From the NCBI GenBank assembly GCA_024687165.1, contig JAILEY010000079.1:1-64000 (forward strand): a DNA stretch of 64,000 nucleotides, given 5' to 3'. This document shows positions 57,937-64,000 of the stretch, one piece after another. The translations under genes were made by a program, and so were the position numbers. Within the stretch, counting starts at the first letter, position 1. The number at the start of each line of letters is the position of its first letter. Source of the stretch: Treponema sp. Lineage in GTDB: Bacteria > Spirochaetota > Spirochaetia > Treponematales > Treponemataceae. The notes under the pieces are model-generated. The model did not search any database. It was given only the letters and a program-made list of their open reading frames with translations, and had not been told where the DNA came from.

Positions 57937-59487
57937 TTAGAACTTACAGCTGATTCCAAGATTTACAAAGCTGTTGTTAAGGAAACCTGATGCTTCTCCT
58001 GACCAGTCTGCAAATTCACTGTCTTCATCTTTTGCAAACATAAGAAGTCCACTTAAAGTGAATGTAATATCCTGGTTAGGCTTAAAGTTTACTTTAGGCA
58101 TTAAAACTAAGTCTCCGCGTTCAATGCCCCACAGAAGAGTTACTTCAGGTTCAATTTTTCCGTTCTGATAGCTGTCTGTAATATTTACTACAAGACGGTT
58201 ATTTGTGTAACAGTCGTTTGAATCATATTCAACATCTGTTGCACCATTAGAAATCATATAAGCACCTGTAGCTGCACCGTACTTTGATTTAATGCTTCCA
58301 TTATTCTTAATCTTGTCGCTGTTAAGAATATAAGTTCCTGTTTCCTGAATATTTACATTGATATTGTTGATTGGAAGATCAATGTCAAAACCTGCAAGCC
58401 ACTGAACAGAATTGTTCTTTACCCATGGATCATCACCCTTTGTATCTTCCGTAAGATTGTAACATGCTTCTCCACGAAGATTGAGTTTCCAGATAATAGT
58501 TGCGGCTTCAACACCAAATGTCTGCTTCTGATCGTAAGCGAGCATATTGTAATAATCACCGCCATTAAGTTTTACAGGATTGAATGAAGGCTGCTTGTAG
58601 TGACCATAGTAATAGCTTGCACCAAAGTCAACAGAAGCAAATGTTCCTGTAAGGCGAAGACCTGCCTGACTGTACTTCAAAGTATTTGTGTCAGGATAGA
58701 TGCTTGAAGGATCTGCAAGAAGACCATTTGCAAGTGTTAAATAATTTAGATATGAAGCAGCTTTAACAGTATCTGTAGGAGCAGCTTCACTCGCCATCAA
58801 CAATCCTGCAAGATTAGAAGAAACTGTATCTGTAACTTTCTTTTCAAGCAATTTAACTTTCCCAGGAGCCCATCTTCCGCTGCCGAATCTGTCTGCTTCC
58901 ATACCCGGAGTAAATACTGCTTCAAGAACAAGATTATTCATAGGGAAAGCATAAGTTGCCTTAAGCATTGGAACTGAAATTCTTCTCTCTGAATAAAGAG
59001 GCACAATGAAGTCCGTATAATCATCTGCGTTGAAATTATCAATTACATGGAGACGGTCGCCCTTTCCCCAGAGTGCACGCATTTTACCGCCTTCTACAGT
59101 AAGTGCGTTGTCCATGAAAAATCCGCGGATTACAGCTTCATCAAGCATGTCCCACTTGTATTCAGTAACAGACTTTTCATCAAACTTAAGTTTTACTTCT
59201 GCACCAACAGTTGCGCCTGAATATTCAAAATTGAGTTTTGCAGAAGGAAATGCTGCAAGTTCCATATCTTCTGCTTTACCGCAGTTAATTCCTTTTTTAT
59301 CAGCCTTTGTGTCAAAATAAGCACGGCTGTCAAGTTTTACTTCTCCACCAATTTTTACCGAAGAAGCACCGCCCGCAGTAGAAGCAGACATATCGCCAAA
59401 ATCACCGAAATCATCAAAGTCCTGAGCAAAAGCAGCAGCAGAAAAACACATAACGGCTGCAATCACAGTATATTTTGTAATTTTCAT
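57937..59487 (-). CDS. Predicted outer-membrane beta-barrel protein of the MMPL exporter operon
   Basis: A 516-residue protein from the ATG at 59487 (AAGGG ribosome site; a longer frame upstream crosses a terminator hairpin). The signal peptide ends AAAFA-Q; the mature N-terminus is QDFDDFGDFGDMS, an acidic Asp-Phe-Gly motif. The rest alternates short amphipathic strands (KIGGEVKLDSRAYF, GATVGAEVKLKFDE, FVNLGISCKF) and ends in Phe, as expected for a barrel. It resembles DUF1302-type proteins found with RND/MMPL exporters and LolA-like genes. Probably lipid or hydrophobic-substrate transfer across the envelope; unproven. Confidence 0.78.
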   Translation of the reverse strand: MKITKYTVIAAVMCFSAAAFAQDFDDFGDFGDMSASTAGGASSVKIGGEVKLDSRAYFDTKADKKGINCGKAEDMELAAFPSAKLNFEYSGATVGAEVKLKFDEKSVTEYKWDMLDEAVIRGFFMDNALTVEGGKMRALWGKGDRLHVIDNFNADDYTDFIVPLYSERRISVPMLKATYAFPMNNLVLEAVFTPGMEADRFGSGRWAPGKVKLLEKKVTDTVSSNLAGLLMASEAAPTDTVKAASYLNYLTLANGLLADPSSIYPDTNTLKYSQAGLRLTGTFASVDFGASYYYGHYKQPSFNPVKLNGGDYYNMLAYDQKQTFGVEAATIIWKLNLRGEACYNLTEDTKGDDPWVKNNSVQWLAGFDIDLPINNINVNIQETGTYILNSDKIKNNGSIKSKYGAATGAYMISNGATDVEYDSNDCYTNNRLVVNITDSYQNGKIEPEVTLLWGIERGDLVLMPKVNFKPNQDITFTLSGLLMFAKDEDSEFADWSGEASGFLNNSFVNLGISCKF

Positions 59488-59499
59488 TATTGTACCCTT

Positions 59500-59523
59500 A
59501 AAAATGGCAGCGGACTGCTGCCA
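59500..59523 (-). terminator. Terminator-like hairpin upstream of the barrel gene
   Basis: Minus-strand TGGCAGC-AGTCC-GCTGCCA (7 bp) followed by five T, ending 13 nt before the barrel gene start. It lies inside the operon, so it should cause partial termination or attenuation. Confidence 0.65.
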
Positions 59524-59536
59524 AGTAAAACTCGCT

Positions 59537-59571
59537 GGAAAATAATTGAAGCCTGGCTTCAATTATTTTCC
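59537..59571. other. Perfect 16-17 bp inverted repeat at the end of the LolA-like gene
   Basis: Arms 59537-59552 and 59556-59571 are perfect complements (GGAAAATAATTGAAGC / GCTTCAATTATTTTCC) around CTG. One arm contains the LolA-like stop codon. Without a T-run, it looks like an mRNA-stabilising or processing hairpin rather than a terminator. Confidence 0.75.
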
Positions 59572-60378
59572 ATTTTTCAAGAAGTTCTGTGTGAATACAG
59601 TCTTTGGATTAATGCTCATTTTCTGCATAAGAGCGAGAGCTTTTTTATCAACAGCAACTGCAATAATCTTAAGTTCTGTCTTGTGTCCAGTCTTAACATT
59701 CTTGTATTCATTTTCCATAGGAATATCATATCCGTCTACATTCTTGATTGACTTTACTGTAAGCTGCTTTTCGAGCTTTCCGTTCTTGTCATAAAGCTCT
59801 GTGTAAACTGGATACATTGTTGCTTTATCAACCCAAACAATTTTCTTTGAGTACTGGCTTGAAGAAGCTACTTTTGGAACATTTTCTACAACATGGCAGT
59901 CAAAGCCGTGGTGCTTTTCATCTCTGAGGTATGTGTGTGTATCATCTTCAATTTCGCGTTTCTTAAGGTCACCGTAAGAAGCATCTGTTCCAAGAAATGA
60001 TTTTGAATCTTCGCTTGAGTTAACGCGGCGTGGATTTGCATCTGTCTTAAGGCGTACAAATTTTCCATCCTCAGGACCATTCTGAATCTGAAGGAAGCGA
60101 GTTCCTGCATAACCTGCCGGAGCAACAAAGTTCATTACCATTTTTGTAACATCCTTGTCACCTGCACCCTTCTTAATATTTGCACCATATTCCCAGAATA
60201 CACGGTTTTCATCAACTGATCCGTTCTTTGCAATAAGATTCATTTCTGCCTTTGCAACTGAATAATCAGGCTTTTTTACATCATGAACTTTTGTCATGAT
60301 TTCGTCACCCTTTGCATCAGCGAAAACTGCTGCAAGGCTCATTGCCATTACTGTTACCAAAGTTGAAAGTTTTTTCAT
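59563..60378 (-). CDS. LolA-like outer-membrane lipoprotein-sorting protein
   Basis: A 271-residue periplasmic protein with signal peptide ending AAVFA. The sequence (SVAKAEMNLIAKNGSVDENR, FLQIQNGPEDGKFVRL, YPVYTELYDKNGKLEKQLTV, DGYDIPMENEYKN) fits the curved beta-sheet hydrophobic-carrier fold annotated as outer membrane lipoprotein-sorting protein in MMPL operons. Start ATG at 60378 follows a GGAGG site; the GTG five codons earlier lies in that site. It probably ferries a lipid-like substrate between the exporter and the barrel protein. Confidence 0.82.
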   Translation of the reverse strand: MKKLSTLVTVMAMSLAAVFADAKGDEIMTKVHDVKKPDYSVAKAEMNLIAKNGSVDENRVFWEYGANIKKGAGDKDVTKMVMNFVAPAGYAGTRFLQIQNGPEDGKFVRLKTDANPRRVNSSEDSKSFLGTDASYGDLKKREIEDDTHTYLRDEKHHGFDCHVVENVPKVASSSQYSKKIVWVDKATMYPVYTELYDKNGKLEKQLTVKSIKNVDGYDIPMENEYKNVKTGHKTELKIIAVAVDKKALALMQKMSINPKTVFTQNFLKNGK

Positions 60379-60456
60379 ATTATCATCCTCCACGATGTAA
60401 AATTATTTTTTCAATCAGTAACACCCAGGATTAACTGAAGTTACTGATAATTTTTT

Positions 60457-63402
60457 TTATTCTTCTCCGCTGGCCTTTGATCCTTTTGGTCTGATGAACT
60501 TAGGATCTACAAGCGTAAGAATTCCAGGAATAACTGTCATAGAAAGGAAGCTTGAAGTGAACATAACGATTGCAATCAAAATACCGATGTAGCGGAGAAC
60601 GATGAACTTTGAAAGACAAAGAACAAGGAACCCGAGTCCAACAGCAAGTGCATTTGTTACAATACCGTGACCGCTCTTTCTGAATGTAGATTTTGTAACT
60701 GCAACAATATCATCTGATTTTGCACGTTCTTCTTTGTAAGTTGTAAGGAAGTGGATTGTATAGTCGATACCAACACCAACTGCAACAGAAGCGATGATTG
60801 AAGTTACAAGATCAAGATTAATCATTGCAAATCCCATAGTCATATAGTTAAGAAGGATTGCAAATGCAAGTGGAATTGCACCAACAAGTCCTGCCCAGAT
60901 TGACTTGAATGAAAGAAGAATGATGATGAATACTGAAATCAATGAAACTGCAAGAGATGAAAGCTGACTGTCAACAATCATGTTTGTCATTGTGTATTCC
61001 ATTTCTCCGGAACCAGTTGCTTCGATTGTATATCCTTCAGGGAAGTTTTCAGCTGCGAATTTCTTTGCATCAGCAATAATTCTTCCAGATTCTTCTGTTG
61101 AGTGATTTCTAAGCTGCACTGTAATGCGCATAGTTCTTGAGCTTGTATTTGCATCAATAAATCTGTCAAGAGAACCGCTCAAAAGGATAAGATAACCTGT
61201 TACAACATCCTTAAGTTCTTCTCTTGTTGCTACAGGATATTTTGCAGGATCATAAGGGATTTCATAGAATGCCATTCCGTTGTAGTTTACGTCTCTCATG
61301 AGAATATCAACCATTTTTTCTACAGTTGCATATTTTCCGCCTGCCTTAATGTAAGCGCTGTTAAGCATATCAAGCACCTGCTGAGTTGTAACGGTTTCTG
61401 CAAGTCTTCTTGAATATTCAGCATTTGGATTTACATAATCAGCAGGAGCAGAAGTTGCTGCAACTGAAGAAGATGTATCGCCGAAGTCACCAAAGTCACC
61501 GAAATCTGCAAACTCGCTCATATCAACATCACCAAAATCTATATCAAGTGAAGCTGAAGAATCTGCAATCTCTGATGATGCACTCTGATCTTCTTCAACA
61601 TATGCTGCTGGATTGTACCAAACCTGATTGATTCTCTTAATAAATGTTGTAAGTGAAACAATCTTTCCTACGCCATGATATTTCTTTTCAAGGAATGTCT
61701 GAAGCTTATCTACCTGATTCAAAAGTTCAACATTTGCAACGTCACCCTTTTCAGGACATGTAATATTGAAGTAAACGCTGTTTGTTCCTGCAAAACGTTC
61801 ATCAACATAATTCATATCCTGGCGAAACTGAGAGTCCTTAGGGAAGTAGTTGATGAGTGCAGTATCAATCTTAAGATAATGGATTCCAATGAATGAAGCA
61901 ACGATTACAACAATCGATGTAAGAATAAGACGTGGCTGTGAACCACAGAAGAACTTAAAGATGCTGTAAACTGTATTTGATGAAGCTTCTTCACTATCCT
62001 TGTTTTCATTGAGAGCCTTAAGACGTGCAATTTTTGCCTTTGCATATTTTGAAAGCTTGTCAAAACGCTGCTTTCTGTTTGTTGCCTTTTTATAATCACG
62101 AAGAAGAAGTACAGCAGGAATAAATGTTACAGAGAACAAAAGTGAAAGAGTAACCCCGACAGCTGTAAAGATTGCAAAACTGTGAAGAGGTCCAATCGGG
62201 CTTGTAACAAGAGAAATAAATCCTACGATTGTAGTAACACCTGCAAGAAGAACAGGAACCCAAACTTCCTTAAGACCAGAGAAAATTGCATTTTCATATT
62301 TTTCACGGGTCATTTCACCTTCAGTAAGATCAAGTGCAACGTAATAATGTGTAAGAACATGAATTCCGTATGCTGAACCTACTGCAATCAGTGAAACAGG
62401 AATAACGCTTGAAACAAGAGTAAATGTATATCCGAAAAGTCCCATAAGTCCGCAAGTCATTGCTGTAGACATAAGAACTGTACACAACGGAAGAATTGTT
62501 CCAGTGAAAGACTTAAAGCTAAGGTAAAGTGAAACAAGAACTACAAGAATAACAAGAGGAATAAGCTTTACAAGGTCTGAAAGCATAAAGTTTCTTGAGC
62601 TTTCTGAAAGTACAGGTTCACCAACAAGCTTCATTATAAGATCATGACCTTTGATTTCTTCCTGAGCGATTGCACGAATCTGCTCAAGAACCTTCTGCTG
62701 TCTTACTGAATCAGGCTTGAGTGAGCGTTCAAGTTTCTTCCACTTATTCTTTGCAGCTTTTTCTGCCTTTTTATTTTCTGAAGTTGGATTTGCTTTTGCT
62801 TCTGCCTTTGCATTTTCATAAGCAGCCTTTGCGTCATCAACAGCCTGCATTTCTTCACTTACAGTTTTAAGGGAAATCATAAACTGAGTTGCAGTATTGT
62901 CATCGTTGATTATTACACGGTTGTACATGTCTGACCATTCTGTAAGACGTGAAGCAAGCTGCATGATTTCATCATCTGTAAGAAGTTCATAAGTCCTTTT
63001 GCCCTCTTCATCCTCAGTGAACTTAAAATCGATGAGAGGAGTTGCAGAAATTGCACCAGTTTCATCAGCGCATACATAATCAATGTGTGCAAGAGAATCA
63101 AGAGATTCAACATCCTTAAGCTCAAGAACACGCTCTGAAATCTTTCTAATTACTTCAACATATTCAGGAGTGAGAATTGTGCCGTCTTTTGCTTCCAGGG
63201 TAAGACCAATGGCAAGCATACTGCCGAATTTTTCTTCCGTGTCTGTAAGGCGCTTGTAAGAAGCATCCTTCTGCGGAAAAAACATACGTGTAGAGTTATC
63301 AAGTGTTAAATCCTTGATAAAAAAAGCTGACACACAAGTGATTGCAAGACATGATGCAATAATAATCACAGGGTGCTTGAAAAAAGTTCTTAAAAATTTC
63401 AT
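60457..63402 (-). CDS. RND-superfamily exporter (MMPL type)
   Basis: A 981-residue inner-membrane protein. A short N-terminal anchor (about 12-30) is followed by a periplasmic loop with a Lys/Glu/Ala-rich helix pair (about 190-235), an SSD/MMPL helix bundle (about 262-435, VGSAYGIHVLTHYYV), a second anchor near 492, a second periplasmic loop (about 520-785) containing an Asp-Phe-Gly repeat (DFGDVDMSEFADFGDFGDFG, about 617-636), and the second bundle (about 800-960, VGVGIDYTIHFLTTYKEE). AAGGATG ribosome site. Exports hydrophobic substrates, likely with its two operon partners. Confidence 0.9.
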   Translation of the reverse strand: MKFLRTFFKHPVIIIASCLAITCVSAFFIKDLTLDNSTRMFFPQKDASYKRLTDTEEKFGSMLAIGLTLEAKDGTILTPEYVEVIRKISERVLELKDVESLDSLAHIDYVCADETGAISATPLIDFKFTEDEEGKRTYELLTDDEIMQLASRLTEWSDMYNRVIINDDNTATQFMISLKTVSEEMQAVDDAKAAYENAKAEAKANPTSENKKAEKAAKNKWKKLERSLKPDSVRQQKVLEQIRAIAQEEIKGHDLIMKLVGEPVLSESSRNFMLSDLVKLIPLVILVVLVSLYLSFKSFTGTILPLCTVLMSTAMTCGLMGLFGYTFTLVSSVIPVSLIAVGSAYGIHVLTHYYVALDLTEGEMTREKYENAIFSGLKEVWVPVLLAGVTTIVGFISLVTSPIGPLHSFAIFTAVGVTLSLLFSVTFIPAVLLLRDYKKATNRKQRFDKLSKYAKAKIARLKALNENKDSEEASSNTVYSIFKFFCGSQPRLILTSIVVIVASFIGIHYLKIDTALINYFPKDSQFRQDMNYVDERFAGTNSVYFNITCPEKGDVANVELLNQVDKLQTFLEKKYHGVGKIVSLTTFIKRINQVWYNPAAYVEEDQSASSEIADSSASLDIDFGDVDMSEFADFGDFGDFGDTSSSVAATSAPADYVNPNAEYSRRLAETVTTQQVLDMLNSAYIKAGGKYATVEKMVDILMRDVNYNGMAFYEIPYDPAKYPVATREELKDVVTGYLILLSGSLDRFIDANTSSRTMRITVQLRNHSTEESGRIIADAKKFAAENFPEGYTIEATGSGEMEYTMTNMIVDSQLSSLAVSLISVFIIILLSFKSIWAGLVGAIPLAFAILLNYMTMGFAMINLDLVTSIIASVAVGVGIDYTIHFLTTYKEERAKSDDIVAVTKSTFRKSGHGIVTNALAVGLGFLVLCLSKFIVLRYIGILIAIVMFTSSFLSMTVIPGILTLVDPKFIRPKGSKASGEE

Positions 63403-63651: not shown

Positions 63652-64000
63652 ATGAATATTACAGAAGAAGAACTTAAATCCTTAAAAGACTCTTTCAGTG
63701 CATGCTCACCTTTATTTACAGCACTTGGAGATGAAATTCGGCAAAAGCTTCTGCTGGACATAATTGATACAGGAGAAGAAGGTGCAAACGTAATGACACT
63801 AACCTCTATGTCACACCTTTCACGCCCTGCAATCTCTCATCACCTTAAAATACTCAAAGATACAGGCTTTGTAAAGACAATCAAAACAGGAACTCAGGTT
63901 TTTTACAGAATTGATATCAACAGAAATCTTGAAAACATCAACGCACTTATTCAATCAATCCAGAAAATCCTTGAAAAAGTAAAAAATGAAGGAACAGAAA
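63652..64000 (+). CDS. ArsR-family winged-helix regulator (cut by window end)
   Basis: The first 116 codons are present. After a short N-terminal helix (NITEEELKSLKDSFSACSPL) comes the ArsR-type DNA-binding core TALGDEIRQKLLLDIIDTG, with recognition helix region HLSRPAISHHLKILKDTGFV and wing VKTIKTGTQVFYRIDI. No CxCxxC metal site is visible in this part, so it may not be a classic metal sensor. It is divergent from the MMPL exporter operon and probably controls it and itself. Confidence 0.88.
   Translation, partial: MNITEEELKSLKDSFSACSPLFTALGDEIRQKLLLDIIDTGEEGANVMTLTSMSHLSRPAISHHLKILKDTGFVKTIKTGTQVFYRIDINRNLENINALIQSIQKILEKVKNEGTE

Follow-up and report, generated by a model that had tools for sequence, protein, structure and literature searches.

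Matched acidic-aromatic peptides on the pump and the barrel of a treponeme MMPL–LolA-like–barrel operon

The window, the whole 64,000 nt stretch of a Treponema sp. contig that was analysed, contains three adjoining genes on the minus strand, in the order pump (63402-60457), carrier (60378-59563) and barrel (59487-57937). The 981 aa product of the first gene is an MMPL-family pump, scoring 147.5 bits against PF03176 (cut-off 20.5; E value 6e-43), and it reached the cut-off of none of the named NCBIfam equivalogs. The second gene encodes a LolA_like periplasmic carrier of 271 aa, which scored 156.9 bits against PF17131 (cut-off 30; E value 6e-46) and also passed the DUF1329 cut-off. In Foldseek comparisons, the predicted fold of the carrier was nearest to LolA3 of P. 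gingivalis (9tp6) and a DUF1329 structure (4z48), with 3bk5 also found, and the TM-score of 0.90 over the target obtained with 9tp6 places it among LolA-type folds. The third gene encodes a 516 aa outer-membrane beta-barrel, with a predicted fold resembling porins such as MOMP and OprB. This barrel matched no Pfam family, DUF1302 (PF06980) included; its porin-like predicted fold and its place in the gene order, adjoining genes for an MMPL protein and for a LolA/DUF1329 fold, are those of DUF1302 proteins. The barrel most likely starts at the ATG at 59487, as the alternative 541 aa ORF from a TTG at 59562 is longer only on paper. The probable function of the operon is lipid transport through the cell envelope.

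The second periplasmic loop of the pump (loop 2) carries an insert (residues about 596-656; 61435-61617, minus strand) that is without counterpart in tail-less MMPL paralogues. Within the insert, residues 620-646 (61465-61545, minus strand) form the acidic-aromatic motif DIDFGDVDMSEFADFGDFGDFGDTSSS, which includes several D-F-G-D copies and has DFGDFGDFGD (residues 633-642; 61477-61506) as its core. The barrel signal peptide, judged by eye, ends in AAFA, before a Q, and then comes DFDDFGDFGDMS. Here, DFDDFGDFGD (residues 23-32; 59392-59421, minus strand) lies at the mature N-terminus, in a tail that is predicted to be disordered. The initial annotation had noticed a DFGDFGD-type motif common to the two proteins, and both translation and a genome-wide pattern count confirm it. 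The sites named were the right ones (the barrel motif was placed at about 59386-59425), but the positions given for the pump (61480-61525, residues about 625-640) were a few bases and residues off.

In the 2.38 Mb genome, GAYTTYGGNGAYTTYGGNGAY occurs three times, always within the pump and barrel genes, and the reversed control pattern does not occur. Exact matches to D-F-[GDE]-D-F-G are likewise confined to these two genes across the whole genome, and DFGDFGD was found nowhere outside the second periplasmic loop of the pump and the mature N-terminus of the barrel. With one mismatch allowed, the genomic count of D-F-[GDE]-D-F-G was no higher than that of the control. When 24-mers from 3204 ORFs at 60 homologous or paralogous loci were scored for acidic-aromatic character, nearly all of the approximately 75 top scores fell in MMPL or barrel homologues.

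Homologous loci were gathered from the family, from named genomes and from the phylum, and the set used contains 83 non-redundant MMPL–LolA_like–barrel operons from Treponemataceae, other spirochaete families, Halanaerobiales and Mcinerneyibacterium. Tail boundaries were drawn with simple rules and in part manually, and wholly manually for 10 added loci. Loop-2 length as measured with a regular expression proved unreliable and was left out.

A variable loop-2 insert is present in almost every tail-type pump, and the adjoining barrel has a short acidic-aromatic tail. The wording of the motif differs between species (DFGD, DDWGD, SFFDD, SSFYQ, LSFFEE, PPLGF[ED] and IPxFGDE were found), and the insert and tail of one operon usually share it. 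Examples, given as insert/tail, are DWG/DWG, SFFDD/SFFDD, SFFEEE/SFFEEG and PPLGFE/PPLGFD, together with SFY/SFY in Halanaerobium and relatives and SVPSFGDE/SIPGFGDE in Treponema ruminis. At one locus (L217), it is loop 1 of the pump that has the matching motif (ELLGDFDT and DVLGDFDT in the pump, DDLLGDFGSS in the barrel). Repeats and aromatic residues mark tails as well as inserts, the insert having several copies of the motif and the tail one or few, and some inserts are clearly tandem-expanded, e.g. at L120 and L086. A search for DFG repeats co-occurring in other spirochaete operons of this type had been suggested; paired motifs proved to be general, with matched wording in most of the 83 operons.

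The carrier gene is usually between or beside the pump and barrel genes. At L060, L097/L124, L135 and L139, the pump is accompanied by one LolA gene, and the barrel, at a distance of a few kilobases, by a second LolA paralogue, sometimes on the opposite strand.

The similarity of a tail to the insert of its own operon was 0.678, compared with 0.395±0.019 for shuffled partners (83 operons). When partners were swapped within 41 phylogenetically independent sister pairs, the Smith-Waterman similarity was lower in 29 and higher in 11 (Wilcoxon p = 1e-4), and two k-mer measures gave p = 5e-4 and 8e-4; 11 or 12 of the 41 pairs went against matching. In a partial Mantel test given the pump-core tree, r was 0.38 (p = 2e-4). 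Because Mantel tests can be liberal, other windows of the same proteins were used as a control: the tail tracked the insert at 0.37, while the maximum among 281 other carrier, barrel and pump windows was 0.25 (73 operons). When the 8-mer that best matches the tail was sought along its entire own pump, it fell in the insert in 71 of the 83 operons, where 6.6 would be expected by length. Insert and tail thus evolve in a coupled fashion and match beyond phylogeny. At the DNA level, the two regions are no more alike than random synonymous codings of these peptides (mean z 0.08). Recent sequence exchange is thereby excluded as a cause, and it is in the proteins that the match is maintained; gene conversion was rejected as a source of the matched wording on these grounds.

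Not all operons of this kind have the motifs. A second MMPL–LolA–barrel operon in the same genome (L178; G000:C65, 4021-8409, minus strand) has neither insert nor tail, and neither was found in the paralogous operons of other treponemes, Bacteroidales and Fibrobacter. Both are also missing from L158, a lineage nested in the tail-type clade. One-sided cases include L142, L209 and L213, where the barrel tail is kept and the pump insert is missing, and L192, where an insert is present with hardly any tail. L209 and L213 are from a distant spirochaete family, and their barrels have the acidic tails DYGALFDN and DYLSLFGD despite the insert-less pump. In a 1.1 Mb treponeme genome (G020), L215 has a degenerate pump insert, DDFGVF, and no barrel homologue could be recognised beside the carrier gene, which would fit a decaying system or replacement of the barrel. 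Given the one-sided exceptions (L142, L209, L213, L192 and L215), the pairing is strong but not obligatory. Loss of the motif from either protein independently, which the initial annotation named as grounds for abandoning a link, occurs at L142, L209, L213 and L192, but these are few and form no general pattern. A functional connection between the two motifs is strongly supported by the matching beyond phylogeny, the exclusion of a shared-DNA cause and the paralogous operons that have neither element.

The explanation that we favour, which we consider about evenly balanced between right and wrong, is an envelope relay in which insert and tail repeat a single docking motif, both recognising one site on the carrier that evolves along with them. 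The MMPL pump would load a hydrophobic cargo onto the LolA-like periplasmic carrier, and the carrier would deliver it to the outer-membrane barrel. At the inner membrane, the loop-2 insert would offer several copies of the motif, and at the outer membrane the disordered N-terminal tail of the barrel would offer one or few. As copies of one docking motif, the two peptides would allow the carrier to be caught at the inner membrane and then again at the outer membrane. The motifs have the features of short linear motifs, being short and degenerate, predicted to be disordered in the case of the barrel tail, and located in separate proteins of one pathway. The initial annotation had suggested that both motifs bind the same site on the LolA-like carrier, and the carrier is indeed the most economical candidate for a common partner, but neither structure prediction nor covariation singled it out.

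For structure prediction, AlphaFold2 was applied to two read-through chimeras devised solely for modelling, each consisting of LolA, its TAA stop read as Q, the intergenic linker, and the barrel signal peptide and tail. In both, the tail was disordered and undocked (pLDDT about 30-41), in what is a weak test with a single chain, the barrel tail only and 55 sequences. The modelling of the tail with the carrier that had been proposed as a check thus gave no docking in this form. Among the columns of LolA, covariation with the wording was highest at 258, 139, 118 and 96 and in windows 109-133 and 239-268, a hint, from alignment columns, that these segments might form a docking region. This signal is driven largely by one tryptophan-dialect clade, is weaker once clades are removed, and is not stronger than for arbitrary barrel or MMPL windows. 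Segment 239-268 is near the C-terminus of the carrier, the part that in Escherichia coli LolA meets the LolC Pad (PMC10865981). Residues particular to the LolA proteins of tail-type operons include R94, Q175, G124 and F266, though these are confounded by subfamily descent.

Alternatively, both peptides may bind another common partner from outside the operon, such as a periplasmic chaperone, a protease, peptidoglycan or a metal ion. The LolA covariation, which is no stronger than that of other windows, and the tails that occur without inserts are in keeping with this, but the motif is in no other gene of this genome. An operon-specific partner fits better than a general one, because the wording varies from one operon to the next and the paralogous operon of this cell does not have it. 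We therefore view an outside partner as rather unlikely.

We also think unlikely a direct like-with-like contact between tail and pump loop, in the manner of cohesive aromatic-repeat peptides, by which pump and barrel would be tethered through the periplasm and the carrier would shuttle between them. Such mutual docking, which the initial annotation had offered as its second possibility, is compatible with the matched wording, as like-with-like binding would also keep it matched, and with the repeated, aromatic nature of both peptides. However, both are strongly acidic and should repel each other without a cation, and a tail of 10-40 residues would need to span much of the periplasm. The retention of the tail without the insert at L142, L209 and L213 argues mildly against tail-loop docking as its only role, and operons of this sort fit docking on the carrier better than direct pairing. 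The view that there is no functional pairing, and that the regions are alike through drift of low-complexity sequence, a composition common to the lineage or exchange of sequence, is disfavoured and very improbable: both regions are indeed low-complexity and fast-evolving, and inserts such as those of L120 and L086 have expanded in tandem, but DNA identity is not in excess, the match goes beyond phylogeny and beyond that of any other window in these proteins, both elements are absent from paralogous operons of the same genomes, and unusual wordings such as PPLGF and IPxFGDE are seen in pump and barrel alike within an operon.

Returning to docking on the carrier, a more specific form of this proposal, that one peptide password on pump and barrel co-evolves with a single carrier site and hands the carrier across, is possible but is put forward more tentatively. 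Known envelope relays work as a bridge (Lpt) or by mouth-to-mouth transfer (Lol). If the proposal is true, the password would be a further way to build a relay, and it would insulate the parallel MMPL–LolA–barrel systems of one cell from one another.

The architecture itself, an MMPL protein with LolA/DUF1329 and DUF1302 partners, is already known. Pseudomonas putida has the same three kinds of part, namely a DUF1302 barrel, a DUF1329 carrier and an MMPL-type exporter (PP_0765, PP_0766, PP_2018 and PP_2019), and the DUF1329 protein is predicted to complex on one side with the barrel and on the other with the exporter (PMC10866462). The tail-less paralogous barrel in the genome studied here (L178) resembles the P. 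putida type in passing the DUF1302 cut-off (34.8 bits; cut-off 23.2). In contrast, the barrel in the window is without a DUF1302 match, and in the portions of that work consulted, where the comparison is by description, a matched peptide pair is not mentioned for P. putida (PMC10866462).

In LolCDE, a periplasmic loop of LolC (the Hook, with the Pad) recruits a LolA-fold carrier, and the sequence of the Hook is poorly conserved among species (PMC10865981). The Hook is like the proposed role of the pump insert in that a periplasmic loop of an inner-membrane transporter engages a LolA-fold carrier. However, LolCDE is an ABC transporter and the pump in the window an MMPL protein, the Hook enters the LolA cavity, and that paper describes no corresponding motif at the outer membrane (PMC10865981). 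The disordered N-terminal domain of the outer-membrane barrel PcoB lends support to a periplasmic partner that its own operon encodes, and in being disordered, N-terminal and on such a barrel it is like the tail described here; it differs in being His/Met-rich and copper-related, and in having no counterpart motif on an inner-membrane pump (PMC12509749).

The matched, species-specific peptide pair at the two membrane ends of this architecture is apparently new, with no earlier description found in a narrow search of the open-access literature. Acidic-aromatic disordered motifs, often repeated, that dock on a common receptor include the DPF/FxDxF peptides of clathrin adaptors and the C-terminal tail of SSB. 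These are cytosolic, and they do not form a matched pair on two membranes with wording that changes together. The route by which spirochaetes move hydrophobic cargo from the inner to the outer membrane is poorly understood, and how MMPL proteins engage periplasmic partners is largely open. The peptide pair is a testable handle on both, as it allows predictions of which pumps, carriers and barrels form one system, indicates a docking event and makes specificity-swap experiments possible.

Two minor features of the locus should be recorded. The pump, carrier and barrel genes share one reading frame, and carrier and barrel would be continuous if stops were read through; the common frame, probably a coincidence, is what allowed the read-through chimeras to be built. 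A divergent plus-strand ORF (63652-64000) starts a short way upstream of the operon and extends past the end of the window; its product resembles ArsR-type regulators and may control the operon.
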